From IMG/VR virus record IMGVR_UViG_3300022752_000266, positions 1 through 31,077 of that record: 31,077 nt of DNA. One strand, 5' to 3'. Position 1 is the stretch's first letter; each line of letters opens with the position of its first letter. The position numbers and the translations under genes are program-made. The stretch comes from a virus. Under the pieces are notes generated by a model, which searched no databases, was not told the DNA's origin, and saw nothing but the letters and a program-made list of their open reading frames with translations. This document shows, piece after piece, positions 3,795 through 28,217 of this stretch.

Positions 3795-4369
3795 GTGAAA
3801 CTTCTATAGTTGTTGTCGAGAATAATCCAGTCATTACGACTGTAAATAATGCTGTTAATGTTGCTATTACAGAAAATACGGTTGAAGTTGTTGATGCTCC
3901 GTTCAAAAAGTATGGGGCTTTTGAATTTAATGGTAGGCAACAAATTGCAGATACAACTGCTGTTTATGCTATGCCGTTAGATACAACAGATTTTTCTGGT
4001 GATGTCTACATTTCAAATACAAGTCGAATAAATTTTCCTACTGCTGGTTTATATAACATTCAATGGTCTGGACAATTTCAAAACACTTCAAACTCAATCG
4101 AAAACATTTATGTTTGGTTGAGAATAAATGGTGTAGATGTTCCTGGTTCAACTGGTTTTATCTCTATTAACGCTAGAAAATCTGCTACTGAAGTTGCACA
4201 CAATATTATTGGCTGGAACTATTTTCTAAGATTTACACCTAATCAATACGCTGAACTTGTTTGGTCTGCCACAAATACAACTGTAAGCTTGGAGTCTTAT
4301 TCTGCTTTGACTAATCCAATTAGACCAAGCACCGCAGCTATAATTTTGACTGCTCAACAGGTGGCGTAA
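3791..4369 (+). CDS. C1q/TNF-like jelly-roll fibre-head protein
   Basis: A 192-residue protein overlapping its predecessor by four bases (ATGA). Residues 1-40 are a low-complexity Val/Asn/Thr-rich lead with repeated VVVENN and NAVNVAI strands. The remainder resembles C1q-like jelly-roll domains in phage appendages: FPTAGLYNIQWSGQFQN, then IYVWLRINGVDVPGS, then IGWNYFLRFTPNQYAELVW, ending in AAIILTAQQVA. Such domains trimerise and often form receptor-binding tips. It sits directly upstream of the long fibre-like gene at 4369, joined by TAATG. Base composition is richer in A and C than the surrounding head genes, consistent with independent exchange of host-range genes. Confidence 0.6.
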   Translation: MSETSIVVVENNPVITTVNNAVNVAITENTVEVVDAPFKKYGAFEFNGRQQIADTTAVYAMPLDTTDFSGDVYISNTSRINFPTAGLYNIQWSGQFQNTSNSIENIYVWLRINGVDVPGSTGFISINARKSATEVAHNIIGWNYFLRFTPNQYAELVWSATNTTVSLESYSALTNPIRPSTAAIILTAQQVA

Positions 4370-6531
4370 TGCCTATACCTTATCCTTCTAGTCCAACTGT
4401 AGGTCAAACTTTTATTTACGGTGGGATTACTTACACTTGGAATGGTGTGGCGTGGGTTTACACAAAAACTAAAACTCCTGCCGTTGTTGGTTCTGTTGCT
4501 GTTACTGCGCCTATAACTAATACTGGAACTCCTACTGCTCCTGTTATTGGCATTAATCAGTCAGCTCTTGTTTTGGCTCAGTCTCAGGTAACTAATCTTG
4601 TTTCTTCTTTGGCTGGTAAAGCTAATCTTGCTGGCGGTAATAGTTTTACTGATGCTCAAGTTATTGGAACTAATGGCACAGCGAATATTGGTTTGGTTGT
4701 TATTGGAACTGCAAGCCAGTCTGCTGATTTGATGCAGATTAGAAATAGTGCTGGCACAAATCTTGTTACGGTAAATAATCTTGGTTCAGTTTTGTGGGGT
4801 TCTGGTAGCGGTTCATTTTTATCGGGAACTAATGGTCGTATTTTCTTGCAAAGTTCTGACCCTGCTGTAGTTTCTATGACTGTTCGTGGTGCTGCTTCTC
4901 AATCAGCATATTTAACTGAATGGCAAAACTCTAGCGGTGGAACTGTTATTGGAATTGATTCGTCAGGTGTATTACAAGCGTTCAATGGTGTTCGTTCAAA
5001 CTCTTTGACTAACACAACGACATTCAATAACGCAAGAATTCAAACAGGTAATACTGGAACGATTATTGATACAGGTATTTTCACTAACCCTGCTTTGCGT
5101 GTTCAAAACACAAATTCCACAGCAACAGCCAACTTAACTGAATGGTTGAGTTCTACTGGTGGCACAGTAGCCTATGTTGCTTCTACAGGCTTTCTAAACA
5201 TCAATAATGCTAGTTTGCGTGTAAATACTGCTGGCGCAACCTATGGCGCAAGAATACAAACAAGCACAGATGGAACTGCTGTTATTGGAATTGTTGTTAG
5301 GGGTGTCGCATCACAGTCAGCAAACTTACAAGAATGGCAGGACTCAACTGGTGGAACTCTCGCTTATATGGGTCCAGGTGGAGCCTTTAGAGCTGCTGTT
5401 TTGCAAACTTCAGGTGCGGCTGTTGATGCTCGTTTGCGTAACTCTGGTGGAGAAATAACTTTTACTAGAACTACAGCAGCAGCACCTAATCCTGGTGCTA
5501 ACTTAGCAAGAATTTATGTTCGTGATGGCACTCTTGCTGGAACATTACGCTTTGTATCTATTACAGGTGCAAGCGGTTTAGAAGAAACGCTTATAGATAA
5601 TATTTCTAGCACTTCTGCGGTTGCTTCTTCTCGTTTTGTTGGTGCTGGCGGTGTAAATACTGCTGGTTCTATTGTTTCTTCTGCTGGTTTAGCGGTTTCT
5701 GGAACTACCGCACCTATCTTGTTGAATGGTTCTGCTGGAACTACTGGCCAGGTTTTGACTTCTGCTGGTCCAGGTGCTTCTCCTACTTGGAATACTGTTT
5801 CTGGTGGTTCATTTACTGGTGGAACATTAACAAGCAATTTAACGCTTGTTGCTGGTGGAACTGCAACTTCTCCGCTTACTTTCCAGTCAGGAACGGCTTT
5901 AAATACTGCTACTGCTGGTGCAAGAGAGTATGACGGAACTGTTTTCTATGAAACATCTAACGCTACGACTGGTAGGGCGCTTGATGTTCAAGAATATTAT
6001 TGGACTGCCCCTACTGCTGGTGTGGCTTTAGATTTTTCTGCTACTACAACAGGTAAAAGCATTATTAATGGTGGAACAAAAGGTTTGGTGCTTGTTGCTG
6101 GAACAACCTATGAGTTTGAACTATATATGACTGTTACACACACATTTGTTTTGGGTTCAACTCAAGCAGGAACTTTTGGTCTAAACTTTACTACTGTTTC
6201 TGGAACACCTACAAATAGCCCGCTTTATCAATATGATTTTGCGAGCAATACTACTGGTTTCAATAACGCTATGACTTTGACAACTTTAGCCACTCAATCA
6301 ACAGGAACACACACATTTTCAGCTGCTATAACAAGCGGTAGCAGATTCTCTATTATTAGAGCTAAAGGCATTATTCGTGTTACTGGAACTGGAACGACAA
6401 GATTTTACCCATTTGTTTCTGTCAATAATACTAACGCTGATAATGGTTGGTCTATAGGTAATGGTTCTTTCCTAAAAATTAAACCTGTAGGAAATGGAAC
6501 TGTAAGCGAAGTTGGAAGTGCGTGGTCATAA
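4369..6531 (+). CDS. Long repetitive fibre or virion appendage protein
   Basis: This 720-residue protein is rich in Gly, Ser, Thr, Ala and Asn, with little charge, as in beta-helical or triple-beta fibre shafts. The N-terminus (PYPSSPTVGQTFIYGGITYT, about residues 4-23) resembles short attachment modules of phage structural proteins. Imperfect repeats centred on ASQSADLMQ, ASQSAYLTEWQNSSGG, TATANLTEWLSSTGG and ASQSANLQEWQDSTGG occur at about residues 114, 175, 250 and 313. A later region has GQVLTSAGPGASPTWNT, a common fibre motif, before a beta-rich C-terminal domain from about residue 520. It probably contacts host surface glycans. It lies unusually within the head module, between portal and protease. 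Confidence 0.75.
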   Translation: MPIPYPSSPTVGQTFIYGGITYTWNGVAWVYTKTKTPAVVGSVAVTAPITNTGTPTAPVIGINQSALVLAQSQVTNLVSSLAGKANLAGGNSFTDAQVIGTNGTANIGLVVIGTASQSADLMQIRNSAGTNLVTVNNLGSVLWGSGSGSFLSGTNGRIFLQSSDPAVVSMTVRGAASQSAYLTEWQNSSGGTVIGIDSSGVLQAFNGVRSNSLTNTTTFNNARIQTGNTGTIIDTGIFTNPALRVQNTNSTATANLTEWLSSTGGTVAYVASTGFLNINNASLRVNTAGATYGARIQTSTDGTAVIGIVVRGVASQSANLQEWQDSTGGTLAYMGPGGAFRAAVLQTSGAAVDARLRNSGGEITFTRTTAAAPNPGANLARIYVRDGTLAGTLRFVSITGASGLEETLIDNISSTSAVASSRFVGAGGVNTAGSIVSSAGLAVSGTTAPILLNGSAGTTGQVLTSAGPGASPTWNTVSGGSFTGGTLTSNLTLVAGGTATSPLTFQSGTALNTATAGAREYDGTVFYETSNATTGRALDVQEYYWTAPTAGVALDFSATTTGKSIINGGTKGLVLVAGTTYEFELYMTVTHTFVLGSTQAGTFGLNFTTVSGTPTNSPLYQYDFASNTTGFNNAMTLTTLATQSTGTHTFSAAITSGSRFSIIRAKGIIRVTGTGTTRFYPFVSVNNTNADNGWSIGNGSFLKIKPVGNGTVSEVGSAWS

Positions 6532-9865: not shown

Positions 9866-11065
9866 ATGCCAAAATTAAAGGGTATTGTTTCTGTTTTATC
9901 TAATTCGCCTTATACTCCTACTGGGTATGGTGTTCAGGCGGGTTATCTGGTTGACCGTTTGAAGCGTGATGGTGTTAATGTTGCTGCGCTAAGTAATTTT
10001 GGTTTGGAAGGCAGTAATAGTGTTTTAAAGACTCCGCATGGTGAGATTCCGCATTATGCTCGTGGTTTTGAACCGTATTCAAATGATGTTATCCCTATGA
10101 ATCATAAGCATCATGTGAATAGCGTGAATTTTGGCCGTAAGGACTCTTTGAATGATGTCTTATTCACGCTTTATGATGTGTGGGTCCTGAAAGGGAAGGC
10201 TTATGACAACATTGAAAAGATTGCTTCGTGGGTGCCGCTTGACCACATTACTATTCCACCTATGGTTTTAGAGTGGTTGAAGAAACCTAATGTTGTTCCT
10301 ATCGCTATGAGTCCGCATGGTGTCCGTCAGATGGAGCAGAATGGTTTAGTTTGTGAGTATGTTCCACATGCTGTTGATACTAAGAAAATTAAACCTACTT
10401 TTGAGATTAATGGCGTAAAAACTAGAGAGTTTATGGGTTTGACTGATGATGATTTTGTTGTCGGCATGAACGCAGCTAATAAGGCTTCTGGTTTGGTTCA
10501 CCGTAAGGCTTTCGCTGAGAATATTATGGCTTTTAGTATTTTTGCTAAAGATAAGCCTGATGCGAAACTGTATTTACATACTGACCCTTTTGGTGGTGCT
10601 GGTGGTTGGAATTTGTTTGTTTTGTGTGAGTCTTTAGGTATAAAGCCTGAACAAATTATTTTTCCTGACATGGCTGACTATAAGTATGGGATTAGCCAGG
10701 AAGTATTGTCGGCTTTCTATACTGCTATGGATGTGATGCTTGCACCTAGTTTTGGGGAAGGCTTTGGTGTGCCGACTATAGAAGCGCAAGCTTGTGGGAC
10801 AAGGGTGGTTGGCTCTAATTGGGCGGCTACTCCTGACCTTGTTTCGTCTGATTGTTGGCTTGTTGAAGGTCAGCCTGCTTGGGATGCTGGTCAGAACGCT
10901 TGGTGGCAGACTCCTAGTATTCCTGCCATTGTTGAAGCATTAGAACAGGCATATAAGGCTCCTAGAGTGCGTAGTGAAGCGAGTATTGAGTTTGCTAAAA
11001 AGTTTGATGTTGATACTGTTTGGACTGAGCATTGGCTTCCATTATGGAAGAAGTTACTTGCGTGA
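9866..11065 (+). CDS. Glycosyltransferase, GT4-like (GT-B fold)
   Basis: A 399-residue cytoplasmic sugar transferase. The N-terminal half begins with a strand-turn typical of this fold (IVSVLSNSPYTPTGYGVQAG). The C-terminal half has the donor-binding signature LAPSFGEGFGVPTIEAQACG, with the E-x7-E pair at Glu298 and Glu306 that contacts the nucleotide-sugar ribose and phosphate. The start at ATG 9866 follows AAAAGGAAAG. It is the first of three sugar-related genes and its stop overlaps the next gene. No signal peptide or membrane segment was seen. The likely substrate is a phage structural protein, but a host surface polymer or modified DNA cannot be excluded. Confidence 0.88.
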   Translation: MPKLKGIVSVLSNSPYTPTGYGVQAGYLVDRLKRDGVNVAALSNFGLEGSNSVLKTPHGEIPHYARGFEPYSNDVIPMNHKHHVNSVNFGRKDSLNDVLFTLYDVWVLKGKAYDNIEKIASWVPLDHITIPPMVLEWLKKPNVVPIAMSPHGVRQMEQNGLVCEYVPHAVDTKKIKPTFEINGVKTREFMGLTDDDFVVGMNAANKASGLVHRKAFAENIMAFSIFAKDKPDAKLYLHTDPFGGAGGWNLFVLCESLGIKPEQIIFPDMADYKYGISQEVLSAFYTAMDVMLAPSFGEGFGVPTIEAQACGTRVVGSNWAATPDLVSSDCWLVEGQPAWDAGQNAWWQTPSIPAIVEALEQAYKAPRVRSEASIEFAKKFDVDTVWTEHWLPLWKKLLA

Positions 11066-11709
11066 TACCAGTTTTGGGGTTTTTGACTTACTCTAAGTTT
11101 GATTTTGCTGACAGATTATTGGCTTCTATTGATTATCCTGTGAAGGATTTAGTTATTGTTGATAATTCTGGTAAGCAAACTTATAAACCTATAAAACCTG
11201 ATTTGGTTGAGCGTATGTGGCTTATTCAAGTGCCTTATGGTTTGGGTTATGGTGGTGGCTTGAATCTGATTGTCAAGTCCACGCCTTTTGCTCCTTACTG
11301 GGTTTTAGTGAATGATGATAGCGTGTTTGCGCCTGGTGCGTTAGAAACAATAACTAAACAGGTTGATACGACTACTATCAACTTTCTTAGCATTATGCCT
11401 AAATGGTCTGGGTTTGTGTTAGGTGAGAAGGTTGTGGAAGATGTTGGCTTATTTGATGAACGATTCCACCCTATCTATTTTGAAGATAATGATTATGAAC
11501 GCAGAATAATGAAGGCTGGTTTCAAAGCTAATTTTATTCATGCGGCTTTACATCACGATAATAGTTCTACTTTGGCTAGTGGTTTTCATAGCCAGAATAA
11601 CACTACTTTTGCTCGTAATCATTTACTGTATTTGAAGAAAGAAAATGAGCAGGATTTTACTGAAGGTGCTTGGTCTTTACGAATTAGGCGGGATAACTCG
11701 TGGGAGTAG
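11062..11709 (+). CDS. Glycosyltransferase, GT2-like (GT-A fold)
   Basis: A 215-residue protein if started at GTG 11062, which overlaps the previous stop as GTGA; ATG 11044 is the alternative and adds six residues. The N-terminal strand IPVLGFLTYSKFDFADRLL and the later LVIVDNSG are typical of GT2 enzymes. Asn84-Asp85-Asp86 (VNDDSVF) match the metal and nucleotide binding DxD position. The segment YFEDNDYERRIMKAGFKANF fits the catalytic-base region. This resembles rhamnosyltransferase-like GT2 members, though the sugar is unknown. It is sandwiched between a GT4 enzyme and a cytidylyltransferase, suggesting a dedicated pathway for virion glycosylation. Confidence 0.87.
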   Translation: MIPVLGFLTYSKFDFADRLLASIDYPVKDLVIVDNSGKQTYKPIKPDLVERMWLIQVPYGLGYGGGLNLIVKSTPFAPYWVLVNDDSVFAPGALETITKQVDTTTINFLSIMPKWSGFVLGEKVVEDVGLFDERFHPIYFEDNDYERRIMKAGFKANFIHAALHHDNSSTLASGFHSQNNTTFARNHLLYLKKENEQDFTEGAWSLRIRRDNSWE

Positions 11710-12143
11710 TTTATACAGGTGGAACTTTTGACTTATTTCATGCAGGTCATGTGAAGTTTTTGAAGCAATGTAAGAAGATTGCTGGTCAGGATGGGCGTGT
11801 GGTGGTTAGCCTGAATACTGACGAGTTTATTCAAGCCTATAAGGGTAAAGCCCCTGTGATGTCGTTTGCGGAGCGTAAGGCGGTTCTGATGTCTTGTAGG
11901 TATGTTGATTCGGTTGTGGAGAATATTGGTGGTGCTGATAGTAAGCCTGCTATTTTGAATGTTTTGCCTGATTTTGTGGTTATTGGGGATGATTGGGCTA
12001 AGAAAGATTATTATGCTCAAATGCAGTTTACGCAGGATTGGCTGGATGAGTTGAAGATTGTTTTATGTTATGTGCCTTATACTGCTGGTGTTAGCACTAC
12101 TGAGTTGAAGAAGCGTATAGTAAATAGCGATAAAATTGGCTAG
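11700..12143 (+). CDS. TagD-like cytidylyltransferase
   Basis: A 147-residue nucleotidyltransferase of the glycerol-3-phosphate/ethanolamine-phosphate cytidylyltransferase group. It should transfer CMP from CTP to a phosphorylated small alcohol, giving a CDP-activated precursor. Both hallmark motifs are present: GTFDLFHAGH with His14 and His17, and the C-terminal GVSTTELKKRI, a variant of the family (R)TxGISTT signature. Length is close to bacterial TagD (about 130 residues). It starts at GTG 11700, overlapping the GT2 gene by 10 bases. Together with two glycosyltransferases it may add a glycerol-phosphate-type decoration to virions or host teichoic acids. The alcohol substrate cannot be read from sequence. 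Confidence 0.88.
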   Translation: MGVVYTGGTFDLFHAGHVKFLKQCKKIAGQDGRVVVSLNTDEFIQAYKGKAPVMSFAERKAVLMSCRYVDSVVENIGGADSKPAILNVLPDFVVIGDDWAKKDYYAQMQFTQDWLDELKIVLCYVPYTAGVSTTELKKRIVNSDKIG

Positions 12144-13191: not shown

Positions 13192-13611
13192 GTGCCAGTA
13201 TATGCTGCAACTGACCACAACATTACAGTCAATGGAACTGCGTTCTCAAATGTCCTTCAGAGCGTTTCCCTTGACCTTTCAATGGATGAAATTGAAACAA
13301 CCGCCTTTGGTTCAAGCTGGAGAACTAGAATTGCTGGTTTGAAGTCTGGTTCTGTAACCCTAAACTTCTTCCAGGACTTTGGTGCTGGAGCCGTAGATTC
13401 AGTTTTGTCTGGTTTGTTTAATGGAACAAACAACTCGTATGCGACTGTTGTTGTAAAGCCAACAAGTTCTGCTACTTCTGCCACCAACCCTGCGTGGACA
13501 GCTGTATGTCTTGTTAGCCAATACCAACCATTCTCGGCTTCTGTCGGGGATATCGCTACACTAAGCGTGACTTGGCCGACTAGCGGCACAGTCTCTCGTG
13601 CAACAGCCTAA
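13192..13611 (+). CDS. Major tail tube protein
   Basis: A 139-residue protein starting at GTG 13192, preceded by AGGAG. The sequence is beta-rich, with the tail-tube-type opening HNITVNGTAFSNVLQSVSLDL, then MDEIETTAFGSSWRTRIAGL and SGSVTLNFFQDF. The motif of an E-T-T-x-F-G segment followed by a G-x-x-x-G-S-V turn is typical of small actinophage tube subunits. The position just before the frameshifted chaperone gene and tape measure supports this. Codon use leans to C-ending codons as in the capsid gene, fitting a protein made in many copies. Confidence 0.8.
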   Translation: MPVYAATDHNITVNGTAFSNVLQSVSLDLSMDEIETTAFGSSWRTRIAGLKSGSVTLNFFQDFGAGAVDSVLSGLFNGTNNSYATVVVKPTSSATSATNPAWTAVCLVSQYQPFSASVGDIATLSVTWPTSGTVSRATA

Positions 13612-13625
13612 TCTAAGGAAAATAA

Positions 13626-13877
13626 ATGAAAATTAACCTACGCATTGAATTTGTTTCTGGCGAAGAAAAAGAAATTACTTGCTCGGCTTCCGATATGGTC
13701 AGATTTGAAACTAAGTTTGACCAGTCGGTTGCTGTGCTTGAATCTAACCCTAAACTTACGCATCTTTTATTTTTAGCGTGGGCATCTGAGAATCGGACTA
13801 AGGGAACTACTAAAGAGTTTGATGTCTGGATTGATGATGTTGTTAGTGTAAAGCCGAGTGAAGCCGACCCAAAATAG
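13626..13877 (+). CDS. Tail assembly chaperone, short (G-type) product
   Basis: An 83-residue acidic protein between the tail tube and tape measure genes, the conserved site of the lambda G/T-type chaperones. It has a beta-strand N-terminus (KINLRIEFVSGEEKEI) followed by helices (ASDMVRFETKF, then THLLFLAWASENRTK). The start at ATG 13626 has AAGGAAA upstream. Its final codons include a canonical -1 slippery heptamer immediately before the TAG stop, and the -1 frame stays open for 52 further codons. This matches the programmed frameshift seen in most siphovirus chaperone genes. The short form should be the major product and bind the tape measure protein during tail assembly. Confidence 0.85.
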   Translation: MKINLRIEFVSGEEKEITCSASDMVRFETKFDQSVAVLESNPKLTHLLFLAWASENRTKGTTKEFDVWIDDVVSVKPSEADPK

Positions 13878-14032
13878 TTGGTTTGGGCGATAGTTCTGCT
13901 CATTGGTATATCGCCTATCTAGCTTGTGAGACTGGGATTAGTCCTAATAGTTTGTTGGAGTGTTCTGACAGAATGTTGTGGACTATGGGCAGGTATTTAG
14001 TTTGGAGAAGCCAGCAACAATCTAACCGATAG
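13626..14032 (+). CDS. Tail assembly chaperone, frameshifted fusion (GT-type) product
   Basis: A -1 shift at 13868-13874 would join the first 83 residues to 52 codons in the -1 frame (13874-14029, stop TAG 14030-14032), giving 135 residues. The extension (GLGDSSAHWYIAYLACETGI, then SLLECSDRMLWTMGRYLVWR) is helical and Trp/Tyr-rich, very like the T domains of other actinophage chaperones. It begins with no ATG, GTG or TTG near the junction, so independent initiation is unlikely. This is a second product of the same gene, needed at a low ratio to recruit tail tube subunits to the tape measure. The frameshift itself is inferred, not observed. Confidence 0.82.
13868..13874 (+). promoter_or_regulatory. 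Programmed -1 ribosomal frameshift site (CCCAAAA)
   Basis: The heptamer reads C CCA AAA in the zero frame, fitting the X XXY YYZ rule: the P-site tRNA can re-pair from CCA to CCC and the A-site tRNA from AAA to AAA. The zero-frame stop TAG follows at once. Confidence 0.85.
13886..13915 (+). promoter_or_regulatory. Stem-loop likely to stimulate frameshifting
   Basis: GGCGATA (13886-13892) pairs perfectly with TATCGCC (13909-13915) around a 16-base loop. A G-U pair can extend it outward. It starts 11 bases after the slippery heptamer, within the usual spacing for a stimulatory structure. Base pairing was found by reading; the folding energy was not computed. Confidence 0.65.
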
Positions 14033-14054: not shown

Positions 14055-14726
14055 GTGTTGGCTCAGTTTGTTACTCGTGGTGATAGAAGTGGCCTGTATA
14101 TCACCGATTTTGAAGAGTTGTATGTAGAGTTGGGTCGTATTCAACCTACTTTGGTTACTCAACTTCGTAAAGATTTTAGAGATATCGCTAAACCTGTTCA
14201 ACAGTCTGTTAAAAACGCTATTCCTGATGTTCCGCCTACTTCTGGTATTCACAAGAAGCGTAGAAGGCAAACTAGGAGTGGTTTTTACCCTATTCAGGTT
14301 CCTGGTCGTTTAACTTGGGGTCCTAATGCTCAGAATAGAAATAAACAGGCTGATTCTGTCGCTATTCAGACCGCTAAACCATCTCAGGTTCGTTATCGCA
14401 TGAAAAGCAATAAGATGTCTCAGACTGCTATTGCTCGTTTGAAGGTTGATAATGCTGCGACTGTTTTGGCTGACTTGGCTGGTTCTTCTGGTGCTTGGGT
14501 GAATAGGAGACCTGTTACTAGGGAGTATCAGTATTCTCGGTCTGCTACTGGTTATAGGGTTCACCGTATTAATGGTCAGGGTGTCGCTATGATTAGGGCT
14601 TTGAAGGGTAAGGGTTCTCGTTTTGTTTGGCCTGCCGCTAGGCAGAGTGTCCCTAAGACTTATCGTAAAACTCAGGATGTTTTATCTAAGGCGTATGCTC
14701 GTATTAATCAAGATTTGAGGTCATAG
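14055..14726 (+). CDS. Minor virion protein between tail chaperones and tape measure
   Basis: A 223-residue basic protein rich in Arg, Lys, Gln and Ser. The N-terminal helical part (ELYVELGRIQPTLVTQLRKD) followed by VQQSVKNAIPDVPPTSG resembles HK97-gp10-like or minor tail components. The middle is strongly basic (IHKKRRRQTRSGFYP). The start is GTG 14055 (TTG 14058 is possible), and the stop shares one base with the GTG start of the tape measure gene. Placement of a gp10-like protein here, after the chaperones rather than before the tail tube, is uncommon but known in actinophages. A neck or tail-assembly role is inferred from position; no enzymatic motif was seen. Confidence 0.55.
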   Translation: MLAQFVTRGDRSGLYITDFEELYVELGRIQPTLVTQLRKDFRDIAKPVQQSVKNAIPDVPPTSGIHKKRRRQTRSGFYPIQVPGRLTWGPNAQNRNKQADSVAIQTAKPSQVRYRMKSNKMSQTAIARLKVDNAATVLADLAGSSGAWVNRRPVTREYQYSRSATGYRVHRINGQGVAMIRALKGKGSRFVWPAARQSVPKTYRKTQDVLSKAYARINQDLRS

Positions 14727-16921
14727 TGGCTGGTTCCATTTTTATTCCGATTATTTCGGCTTTTGATGCTAAGGGTATTCGCCAGGCTCAGAGTGCGACT
14801 AAGGGTTTTACGGCTGTTCTAAAGAACCTTAAGACTACTGCTGCTTTAGCTGCTGTTTCTTTTGCGACTGTTGGTGCTGGTCAGTTCATTAAGGATGCTA
14901 CTGGTGCTGCTCGTGACCTTGACCGTAACCTTGTTGGTTTGCAAGGTGTTTTTGGTGACATGACTCCTGTGATGGAACAGTTCACTAAGGATGCTAAAGA
15001 TATTGGTTTGAGTCAGGTTGATGCGGCTAGGTCATCTACTTTCTTGGGTTCGGTTTTGAAGCAGTCTGGTTTTGACATGGCTACTACTGCTAAGGAAACT
15101 AAAAATCTTGTTGGTTTGGCTTCGGACCTTGCGGCTACTTATGGTTATGATGTTTCTGAAGCTTTGACTGGTATGACGGCTTTGTTTCGTGGTGAGTATG
15201 ACCCGATAGAAAAGTTCGGTGTTGCTATGAAGCAGGCTGAAGTTAATGCTTTGCTTGCTGCTCGTGGTCAAAAGAATTTAACTGGTGCCGCTTTGCGCCA
15301 TGCTCAGGCTCAGGCTCGTCTTGATTTACTTTATTCTCGTTCTCAGGATGCTCAGGGTGCTTATGCCCGTCAATCGGATAGTTTGTTTGTTGCTCAAAAG
15401 AATTTATCTGCCGCTTTTGAGAATTTGAAGGCCGCTTTGGGAACTGCTTTGCAGAAGCCTTTAGCCACCCTTCTTGACTCTTTGACTCCGCTTATTGAAA
15501 AAATGGGGCCACAACTGACCCCTATTTTTGAGACTTTTGGTAAGGTTGTGCAGGTTCTTAGTCCTTTGTTTGAACCTTTATCTGAGTTGTTTATGTTGTT
15601 GTGGGAAGCGATAAGTCCAATTATTGATGTTTTGATTGATTTGATTAAGCCTTTGATGGTGCCGCTTGTCGAAATATTGAAACTTCTTATCCAGCTTTTT
15701 AAGCCTTTAATTCCTATTATTGAGTTTTTTGCAAGGACTGTGGGTGTTGCGCTTGTCCCTATTTTGACTGTTTTAGGTTGGGTTTTGACTCTTGCGGTTA
15801 AAGCGGTTGTCGCTTTTGTTGATGCTTTGGCGAGTATTCCTTTTATTGGAGATTTCTTTAAAGATGCTAATAAAGTTTTAAAGGAAACTACTGACGGTTT
15901 TAATGGTTTGAATGACTCGGTGCTTGAAGTTGACGGCAATGGCAAAGAGATGATTAATACTTTGTCTAAGAAGATTCCATTTAATGCTATTGATGATATT
16001 AAGGGTAGTGCTAAAGCTGCAACTACTCAAGTTGAGAAAACTACTGATGCTATTGATGCTTTGATTGACAAGGCTAAAGGTGTTCAAAGTGATTTGATTA
16101 GTGCTTTCGATATAAATTCGGTATTGGATGACAATAAGAAATCTATTGTTGAAAGTGTCACTTATGTTGCTGGAAAGTTTAAGGTTGTTGCTTCTGGTGT
16201 AGTTAAGGGGACAGGCAATATTGCTGATACTTTCCGTAAGAATTTAGGAAAGTTGAAGGGTTTTGCTGAAAATCTGACTCGTTTGGTGAAGGCTAATCTT
16301 GACCCTGAGTTGATTCAGCAGATTGTTTCTGCTGGCCCTGATGCTGGTAATGCTACTGCTGAAGCTATTTTGGCTTCTGGTAAAGAAGGTATTACAAGTT
16401 TAAATAAGACTTTTAGTGGTATTCGTAAGGTTTCTGGCGATATTGGGGCTAAGGTTGCACAGAAAATGGAGTCTGTCGGTGAGCGCATGGGTAATGGGCT
16501 TATTGACGGGTTTCTTTCTCAGAGACAAGCGTTAATTGATGCTATTGATTCTATGGGTGATGATGCAGTTGAAGTTTTCAATAAAAATATTAAGAGCGGT
16601 ATTTTGAATTTGGCTAATGTTACTCAAGAGATTAGAGCGCCTTTTATCGGTAGTCAAATTGCTGGAATGCGACCTGGAACTAATGTGACTCTTTTGCCTG
16701 ACTATTTGAAGCCTAGTTTGTTTACTGCTAGACAACTTCGTAACCCTTTTGCTGAAGGGACAAGTCAATATCAGACTTTCCAAGAAGCTAAGTCGAAGGC
16801 TATTAGTTACAATATTTCGATTAGTGTTGCGCCTGGTGCTAGTGGAACTATGATTGGTAAAGCTTTGGTTTCTGCTATTCAAGAGTATGAGCGTATTGCT
16901 GGCGATACTTGGAGAAGGTAA
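14726..16921 (+). CDS. Tail tape measure protein
   Basis: This 731-residue protein should set tail length and be ejected before DNA. Typical tape-measure features: a helical N-terminus with AKGIRQAQSATKGFTAVLKN, the ATGAARDLDRNLVGLQGVFG region, the family-characteristic YGYDVSEALTGMTALFRGEY (about 142-161), long Ala/Gln-rich helices, and a strongly hydrophobic central block at about residues 280-385 (for example LMVPLVEILKLLIQLFKPLI). No lytic transglycosylase or peptidase domain was recognised. Using the usual rule of about 0.15 nm per residue, the tail would be near 110 nm, an estimate only. It starts at GTG 14726, overlapping the previous stop by one base. Confidence 0.92.
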   Translation: MAGSIFIPIISAFDAKGIRQAQSATKGFTAVLKNLKTTAALAAVSFATVGAGQFIKDATGAARDLDRNLVGLQGVFGDMTPVMEQFTKDAKDIGLSQVDAARSSTFLGSVLKQSGFDMATTAKETKNLVGLASDLAATYGYDVSEALTGMTALFRGEYDPIEKFGVAMKQAEVNALLAARGQKNLTGAALRHAQAQARLDLLYSRSQDAQGAYARQSDSLFVAQKNLSAAFENLKAALGTALQKPLATLLDSLTPLIEKMGPQLTPIFETFGKVVQVLSPLFEPLSELFMLLWEAISPIIDVLIDLIKPLMVPLVEILKLLIQLFKPLIPIIEFFARTVGVALVPILTVLGWVLTLAVKAVVAFVDALASIPFIGDFFKDANKVLKETTDGFNGLNDSVLEVDGNGKEMINTLSKKIPFNAIDDIKGSAKAATTQVEKTTDAIDALIDKAKGVQSDLISAFDINSVLDDNKKSIVESVTYVAGKFKVVASGVVKGTGNIADTFRKNLGKLKGFAENLTRLVKANLDPELIQQIVSAGPDAGNATAEAILASGKEGITSLNKTFSGIRKVSGDIGAKVAQKMESVGERMGNGLIDGFLSQRQALIDAIDSMGDDAVEVFNKNIKSGILNLANVTQEIRAPFIGSQIAGMRPGTNVTLLPDYLKPSLFTARQLRNPFAEGTSQYQTFQEAKSKAISYNISISVAPGASGTMIGKALVSAIQEYERIAGDTWRR

Positions 16922-26849: not shown

Positions 26850-27066
26850 AGATTTGAATATACCAGGCAAGGTATTTTCCTGTAGAGTTAAAAGCATAAA
26901 GAATGATTTATCGGATGCTGATGCCAAGATATTTGAAGAAGCTGTGATGAATCCTAGTTGGCAGTTGACGGTGCTATCACGAGAGTTAAAGAAGCGAAAC
27001 ATAAACATTAGTGATAACAGTATGCGGAGACATAGATTGAAGGCTTGCTCATGTTGGAAAATTTAG
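26833..27066 (+). CDS. Small helix-turn-helix-like protein
   Basis: A 77-residue protein (ATG 26833, or ATG 26842). The C-terminal half (PSWQLTVLSRELKKRNINIS, then DNSMRRHRLKAC) has the form of a short DNA-binding helix-turn-helix: a helix, a turn around Asn-Ile-Asn, then a basic recognition helix with RRHR. It is followed by CSCWKI. Similar ORFs sit directly before metallophosphoesterase genes in actinophages. It may regulate the local operon or bind phage DNA. It overlaps the next gene by 16 bases. Confidence 0.6.
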   Translation: MAKMLEDLNIPGKVFSCRVKSIKNDLSDADAKIFEEAVMNPSWQLTVLSRELKKRNINISDNSMRRHRLKACSCWKI

Positions 27067-28217
27067 CTACTCCTGCACCTAAAATAAATCCACCTTCTGG
27101 TTGGAATCCAGCAGTTGAGTTTGATGGAACTGAAGGTGAAGCAATCTTGCCACCTGTTCAGGATGATGAAAAGCCTGATTTTGACCAATTTTTGGTTGAT
27201 GCTGGTTTTGACCCTGAATTGATTGAGATTGTTGGTGAACCTAGAACTTCTCGCTGGCAGGTTGCTAGACCGTTTCCGCTTGAACCTATGTGGCTAACTT
27301 CCTATAAGTTTCGATTTAGGAAGCGTAATGCTGTAGTTGATTTGCCTTTGTTGTATTCGCAAGCCAAGAAAACTAAAAAGATTGAACCTAAGACTTCAGT
27401 TTCTGGTAAGGCTTTGGTTGTGTTGTGGTCGGATTTACAGGTAGGTAAGGCTGACCATAGGGGCGGAACTGAAGAATTTTTGCAGCGTGTGGAAGAGAAA
27501 AAGAAAGCTCTTATTGCGAAATGTAGGGAAGTAAAACCTGAAAAGATTGTATTTTGTGATGTTGGCGATACTATCGAGAATTTTGGTAATGCCGCTAATT
27601 TGATGCAGTTAAGAACAAATACGCTAAGTATTATGCAACAGGTTGACCTTGCTACTACTCTAGCGTGGGATGTTTTGAAGGAACTTTGTAAGTTTGCTCC
27701 TGTTTCTTATCTTTCGGTTGGTAGTAATCATTGTCAATGGCGTGTATCTAAACAGCGTGTGGGTAATACTTTGGATGATTGGGGTATTCATATTGGTAGG
27801 ACTTTGGCTCGGTTGAGTAATGAAGTTGGTTTGCCTATCAAGTTTTTTGAACCGCAACCTAATGATGAGAGTTTGGCTTACGACATTTTCGGGGATACTA
27901 AACATATTTTGGGGTTGTGGCATGGACATCAAAGTTCCCGACCTGACCAAGTTCCTACTTGGTGGCGGCAACAGGCTTTTGGTAAGCAACCTGTTCACGC
28001 TGCAACTATCGGTGTGAGCGGGCATTTTCATCATTTACGGGTTCAGGAACTTGGTTCTACACCATCTGGTTCTAGCAGGTTTTGGATTCAAGCCGCTACT
28101 TTAGATAATGGTAGTAATTGGTTTAGGCATACTGCTGGTGAAGATAGCCAACCTGGTTTGGTTTGTTTTGCTGTTGAAAAGGGAAAGGATTTTACTGGGA
28201 CTGTCTGGAAGTTGTAA
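27051..28217 (+). CDS. Calcineurin-like metallophosphoesterase
   Basis: A 388-residue enzyme, ATG 27051 with GAAGG upstream. After a Pro-rich, likely flexible N-terminus (about 80 residues), it shows the five phosphoesterase blocks: SDLQVGKADH (Asp128, with Gln replacing the usual His), GDTIEN (Asp173), GSNHCQW (Asn226, His227), HGHQ (His291, His293) and GHFHH (His325, His327). These bind two metal ions. Such phage proteins are thought to be DNA exonucleases or repair phosphatases of the Mre11/SbcD class. The Gln in block one is known in some relatives. It is followed directly by a small zinc-like protein and a DNA methyltransferase. Confidence 0.85.
   Translation: MLENLATPAPKINPPSGWNPAVEFDGTEGEAILPPVQDDEKPDFDQFLVDAGFDPELIEIVGEPRTSRWQVARPFPLEPMWLTSYKFRFRKRNAVVDLPLLYSQAKKTKKIEPKTSVSGKALVVLWSDLQVGKADHRGGTEEFLQRVEEKKKALIAKCREVKPEKIVFCDVGDTIENFGNAANLMQLRTNTLSIMQQVDLATTLAWDVLKELCKFAPVSYLSVGSNHCQWRVSKQRVGNTLDDWGIHIGRTLARLSNEVGLPIKFFEPQPNDESLAYDIFGDTKHILGLWHGHQSSRPDQVPTWWRQQAFGKQPVHAATIGVSGHFHHLRVQELGSTPSGSSRFWIQAATLDNGSNWFRHTAGEDSQPGLVCFAVEKGKDFTGTVWKL

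Follow-up and report, generated by a model that had tools for sequence, protein, structure and literature searches.

Between the genes for its major tail protein and its tape measure protein, a virus record classed by IMG/VR carries a short open reading frame (ORF) that ends inside a second, overlapping frame, and the locus raises the question of whether both frames are translated from a single start. The whole stretch of DNA that was analysed, the 31,077 bases of this record, is called the window and is probably a metagenome assembly. A sequence-only reading had proposed a complete -1 frameshift cassette for tail chaperones, with a fusion product that a gene caller would miss. We consider it very likely that the locus is a -1 programmed ribosomal frameshift cassette, from which one start gives two proteins, an 83-aa gpG-like product and a 135-aa gpGT-like fusion. 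The features on which the argument draws are as follows.

13192-13611, + strand: major tail protein gene, given for context (phrog_4574, E 4.4e-23)
13626-13877, + strand: gpG-like ORF of 83 codons, the putative upstream chaperone gene, with a short product of 83 aa (phrog_6889, E 1.2e-4)
13854-13861, + strand: weak, marginal Shine-Dalgarno-like stretch upstream of the slip site, based on a family mean z and not on this genome alone
13862-14032, + strand: -1 frame ORF, the gpT-like extension, with 52 codons after the slip and a stop (dN/dS 0.12)
13868-13874, + strand: slippery heptamer CCCAAAA in the register C_CCA_AAA, seen in the sequence and in relatives
13875-13877, + strand: 0-frame stop TAG directly 3' of the heptamer, seen in the sequence
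13884-13917, + strand: candidate stimulatory hairpin, in which 13884-13892 pairs with 13909-13917 (predicted 9-bp stem and family folding excess)
14726-16921, + strand: tape measure protein gene, given for context (phrog_991, E 1.7e-22)

Cassette parts and chance expectation in the window

The 3' end of ORF 13626-13877 reads GAC CCA AAA TAG, with the heptamer in the frame expected of a slip site and the stop immediately behind it, exactly as the sequence-only reading had described. Its 52-codon open extension is likewise present: in the -1 frame no stop occurs between 13862 and the one that ends at 14032, and translation through a -1 slip gives a fusion of 135 residues. The extension had also been said to lack a start, and this holds for its beginning, where a codon scan found no start codon, but not for its interior, where TTG stands at codons 3, 26, 27 and 34 and ATG at codons 33 and 37 (counted from 0). 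The 7-bp core of the predicted stem pairs GGCGATA (13886-13892) with TATCGCC (13909-13915) and starts 11 nt past the heptamer.

How much of this could arise by chance differs from part to part. CCCAAAA occurs 11 times in the window against 9.3 expected, and 52 open codons are found at 26% of random plus-strand positions in it. The combination is rarer: among the 30 in-register XXXYYY heptamers (Y = A or T) in the 40 ORFs taken as genes, only CCCAAAA at 13868 is followed by a long -1 run past the ORF's own stop (50 codons; next best, 2). Tested against 200 dinucleotide shuffles, the 113 nt that begin at the slip site outfold 196 of them (z -2.39), and for the 51 nt around the stem alone z is -1.61, with 13 of 200 shuffles as good. 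The window by itself is thus suggestive of a frameshift cassette, and we take the comparative sequence data described below to be decisive for this reading. Elsewhere in the window, ORF 27045-28217 has an in-register GGGAAAG at 28181-28187, 27 nt ahead of its stop; this heptamer is probably a chance occurrence, since the -1 frame closes 2 codons beyond the stop of the ORF.

Architecture and selection among relatives

Three queries were run against IMG/VR: the fusion, the N part by itself and the extension by itself. They yielded 79, 80 and 80 loci, respectively, each set coming from the 80 best among 104, 553 and 487 confirmed stretches, and contigs recur between the searches. In all 239 of these best-matching loci we observed both parts in the -1 register, with an in-frame CCCAAAA or AAAAAAA in the overlap. 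The pairing of N part and extension was not built into the result, because the N-only and extension-only searches did not require the other half. A fourth search led by Pontimonas phage phiPsal1 returned the same architecture in 78 of 80 loci, and in the other two no N part was detected because the match sits at the start of the contig. The sequence-only reading had held that relatives with a disrupted second frame would speak against it, and we found that frame intact in 239/239 loci and in the 78 of 80 further ones. A sequencing or assembly error, or a gene in decay, could mimic a frameshift, the more so in a record that probably derives from metagenome assembly, but the junction is identical in the phiPsal1 record and in 239/239 loci drawn from many samples; together with the strong purifying selection on the extension described below, this makes the likelihood of such an artefact negligible. 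Host or prophage copies of the cassette were sought in genome contigs, where none of 64 pattern matches was confirmed as a relative.

To measure selection we used 76 representatives with less than 90% nucleotide identity, drawn from 241 cassettes (the 239 loci, the window and phiPsal1) and not phylogenetically independent of one another. Sequences too short for the 397-nt comparison were left out, as was EBPR siphovirus 6, because its heptamer is CCCTTTG. At the slip site, Asp is encoded by GAC in 62 of 62 representatives, Pro by CCA in 71 of 71 and Lys by AAA in 76 of 76, against a background usage in the same cassettes (48 representatives) of about 50% for GAC, 29% for CCA and about 51% for AAA. 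Within the CCCAAAA group the base preceding CCA is always C, even where the residue is Ser, Asn or Ala. These alignments indicate that the slippery codons are frozen at synonymous positions. For the extension, the median dN/dS is lowest in the -1 frame, at 0.12, and reaches 1.41 in the 0 frame and 3.72 in the +1 frame (214-229 pairs, not independent), and stops are absent from the -1 frame of 76/76 representatives and present in both other frames of 76/76. This pattern argues that the extension is under purifying selection as a protein only in the -1 frame, and its mean column identity is 72% vs 63% for the N part (17 sequences each). With the register kept, the slippery codons frozen and selection confined to one frame, the proposed -1 cassette is strongly supported.

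The same data bear on how the extension would come to be translated. The downstream frame could be a separate gene with independent or coupled initiation at a non-ATG start, for which the TTG at extension codon 3 (13883-13885) and the later TTG and ATG codons would offer candidates. However, the Leu column at codon 3 uses TTG in only 15 of 73 representatives with Leu, with all six Leu codons represented; the K, I and G residues before codon 3 are conserved as protein; and starting at the conserved internal ATGs would lose a conserved GLGDxSxHW block. A separate gene would also leave the frozen C_CCA_AAA codons unexplained, and we regard it as very improbable.

A fusion could also be produced by transcriptional slippage, in which RNA polymerase adds or skips a base. 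In its favor, some relatives carry AAAAAAA, perhaps long enough for the polymerase to slip. Yet the A run has just 4 bases in the window and in most of its close relatives, whereas runs cited for transcriptional realignment are those longer than 7 (PMC3711429), and the CCC is kept, which is useful to tandem tRNA slippage and not to a polymerase, so that we give this explanation very little credence. AAAAAAA is the heptamer in 26 of 80 loci of the extension-only set and in 54 of 80 of the phiPsal1-led set, one of which also has GGGAAAA. In one subgroup (L057, L172, L177, L195 and relatives), AAAAAAA, in runs of 7-8 A or more, replaces CCCAAAA before the stop, and there slippage by the polymerase could act alongside that of the ribosome or take its place.

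For ribosomal frameshifting, we infer that slippage occurs and that its efficiency is low: most ribosomes would terminate at TAG 13875 and release the 83-aa gpG-like protein, and a minority, with tRNA-Pro and tRNA-Lys on CCA AAA, would slip back to CCC AAA, add 52 residues and complete the 135-aa gpGT-like fusion. The hairpin just 3' of the slip site may aid the slip. C_CCA_AAG is reported to shift very readily in E. coli (PMC5009743), which makes C_CCA_AAA plausible as a slip site. Judged by the titles listed, literature searches on CCCAAAA and frameshifting returned no phage tail paper, and none on the CCCAAAATAR cassette family.

The abutting stop codon and flanking RNA signals

In 69 of the 76 representatives the 0-frame stop directly adjoins the heptamer; the remaining 7 have it at a distance of 3, 9, 12 or 36 nt, and in the phiPsal1-led set it adjoins the heptamer in 64 of 78 members. 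The sequence-only reading had called a stop in the codon after CCCAAAA somewhat unusual; the arrangement is there as described, but it is the rule in this family and no peculiarity of this phage. In the -1 frame the codon that overlaps the stop specifies Ile, as ATA in 69 of 73 representatives; in the strictest set this Ile is ATA in 27 of 30 cases, compared with 25 of 199 (12.6%) at other Ile positions. Because the overlapping Ile is nearly always ATA and ATA is rare elsewhere, the position of the abutting stop seems to be selected. The stop is TAG in 43 cases, TAA in 33 and TGA in none, and the absence of TGA is explained, if Ile is needed, by the fact that an abutting TGA would turn the overlapping Ile into Met.

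These observations permit a refinement of the frameshift reading, rather than an alternative to it, in which the abutting stop is a working part: slippage would take place while the stop waits in the A site, and the level of release factor would set the ratio of short to fused protein. The near-constant placement of the stop and the biased ATA codon that creates it favor this refinement, as does the report that, when the next codon is a stop, -1 slippage at the HIV-1 element faces competition from release factors (PMC4373837). Against it, 7 of the 76 representatives keep the cassette with the stop 3-36 nt away, and an early stop could be selected merely to fix the length of the short protein. 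We treat a working role for the stop as possible and no better than tentative. The sequence-only reading had suggested that the stop may add to the pausing, and here the literature on stops next to slip sites points in both directions: at the HIV-1 site, placing a stop as the next codon lowers -1 shifting (PMC4373837), and in pea enation mosaic virus, where a stop lies 3 nt beyond the site, replacing it by a sense codon has a drastic effect (PMC5009743). More speculatively, the TAR stop in this aquatic phage family might be part of a switch, such that the proportion of short to fused chaperone tracks the availability of RF1 in the host and the host's growth state. We hold this to be rather doubtful; if true, competition between slippage and release-factor decoding would couple tail assembly to the translation status of the host.

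Across the 76 sequences, the region after the heptamer folds more strongly than its synonymous recodings (mean z -1.59). When a 42-nt segment was slid along the gene, the folding profile reached its minimum (mean z -1.66) in the segment starting 5 nt past the end of the heptamer, 12 nt from its first base, and segments not touching the post-heptamer region had mean z values of about 0.3 to -0.85. The minimum stays at the same offset in less related sets (-1.36 in 48 sequences; -1.40 in 31 sequences with <72% identity). The stem that had been noted 11 bases downstream is present, and relatives share its position and not one fold. Stems differ between relatives, with a long GGCGAU/AUCGCC stem in the window's group and compact hairpins in others (e.g. 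CGCUCG/CGAGCG in L031), and the best reading of the comparison is a hairpin held at a fixed distance from the heptamer rather than a fixed fold.

A single conserved RNA structure was also considered; RNAalifold on 25 relatives found only 5 pairs with 0 compensatory changes, 3 of the 5 being broken in 3-4 sequences, and on this result and the differing per-sequence stems the candidate was dropped. A second hairpin is predicted further down the extension at 13945-13978, and the family profile shows a smaller folding dip near +66 nt (mean z -0.84). Some bacterial frameshift sites have a Shine-Dalgarno-like stimulator on their 5' side; in this family, anti-Shine-Dalgarno pairing of the 8 nt ending 6 nt before the heptamer is weak (mean z -1.05).

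Probable chaperone identity and known counterparts

The cassette lies between the major tail and tape-measure genes, and by analogy it is most likely a tail-assembly chaperone of the lambda gpG/gpGT type. The name rests on position and architecture because no characterised chaperone family or solved fold matched. In Pfam, the cassette proteins matched no tail-chaperone family, and phrog_6889 is annotated as of unknown function in 29 of 51 members. The AlphaFold2 model of the cassette protein (listed under the gpG-like ORF 13626-13877) has a pLDDT of 90.5. Foldseek against the PDB gave nothing with E < 0.001; the best VIA-align match was to an unrelated oxidase (Z 4.6, rmsd 3.9, 67 aligned), with no solved tail chaperone among the matches listed; and of 17 BFVD matches at E <= 0.001, 16 are named 'Uncharacterized protein' and the top one has no name.

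Like lambda gpG/gpGT and its counterparts in tailed phages, the cassette consists of a short ORF and a -1 extension between the major tail and tape-measure genes, and, like lambda, it has an XXXYYYZ heptamer and an extension without its own start. The lambda heptamer is GGGAAAG, and the cassette has CCCAAAA in its place. The cassette differs from lambda in having no detectable sequence relation to a characterised chaperone and in the extra gene that precedes the tape measure gene. It also departs from lambda-type chaperones in that its 0-frame stop adjoins the heptamer, the average distance from slip site to stop in tail chaperones being 26 nt in the SEA-PHAGES training data and 36 nt in the Xu set (PMC10885494). 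In lambda, a low level of -1 frameshifting gives rise to gpG and gpGT; the part common to both binds the tape measure protein, whereas the T part binds the tail tube protein. This arrangement is widely conserved even though the sequences show little similarity (PMC5009743). By this analogy, the shared part of the cassette proteins would bind the tape measure protein, and the gpT-like domain would recruit the major tail protein. A stop directly 3' of the slippery sequence is also found in Rous sarcoma virus and barley yellow dwarf virus (PMC4373837); these are unrelated eukaryotic viruses that use eukaryotic ribosomes, alike in this one respect and not members of the family.

The closest named relative found is Pontimonas phage phiPsal1 (MG835450), whose genes 016-017 span a homologous N part and extension (54% identity over 94% of the fusion) and whose tail gene order is that of the window, in a genome of nearly equal length (31,069 bp). 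It differs in its slip site, A_AAA_AAA followed by TAA, and in its annotation, which lists two hypothetical proteins and gives the extension no separate gene, so the expectation that gene callers would miss the fusion was borne out in this phage. The phiPsal1 extension (L081:5231-5407) has no deposited gene, and the start of gene 017 (L081:5344) falls inside it. The paper reporting phiPsal1 states that the phage is not discussed further (PMC6106888). From this relative, the hosts of the cassette family are probably aquatic actinobacteria. A more distant counterpart is gp13 of EBPR siphovirus 6 (JF412301), with a weak match to the extension in the -1 frame downstream of gp13; here the heptamer is CCCTTTG, 24 nt before the stop, and the -1 extension is unannotated (L082:1481-1850). 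Searches with the EBPR and phiPsal1 fusions gave further links that were weak only, among them, with the EBPR query, a match of 30 residues (E 0.1) to gene 13 of Gordonia phage Schiebs, annotated as a tail assembly chaperone, and gene 14.

The cassette is a known kind of system in a large, abundant and mostly unannotated aquatic phage family, and the comparative evidence defines a probable tail-chaperone frameshift that is unannotated in phiPsal1 and of unknown function in its PHROG. For annotators it suggests a usable rule: look for CCCAAAATAR closing a small ORF that lies between the genes for the major tail protein and the tape measure protein. The frameshift trick itself is well known, and only the apparently selected stop next to the slip site goes beyond the routine; the apparent selection on it offers a natural and phylogenetically broad test case for -1 slippage with a stop in the A site.

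Several neighboring genes were also recorded. A 223-aa ORF (14055-14726) lies between the cassette and the tape measure gene and has relatives in 192 of 242 loci, some of which are incomplete; it has no PHROG or Pfam match, and its AlphaFold2 model (pLDDT 84.9) has no confident PDB match. In the head module, a 720-aa ORF (4369-6531) has no PHROG match at E 0.001. Between the major capsid and head-tail adaptor genes, the structural module contains two glycosyltransferase genes and a nucleotidyltransferase-like gene (9866-12143), and phiPsal1 carries sugar and methyl transferase genes at the matching position.
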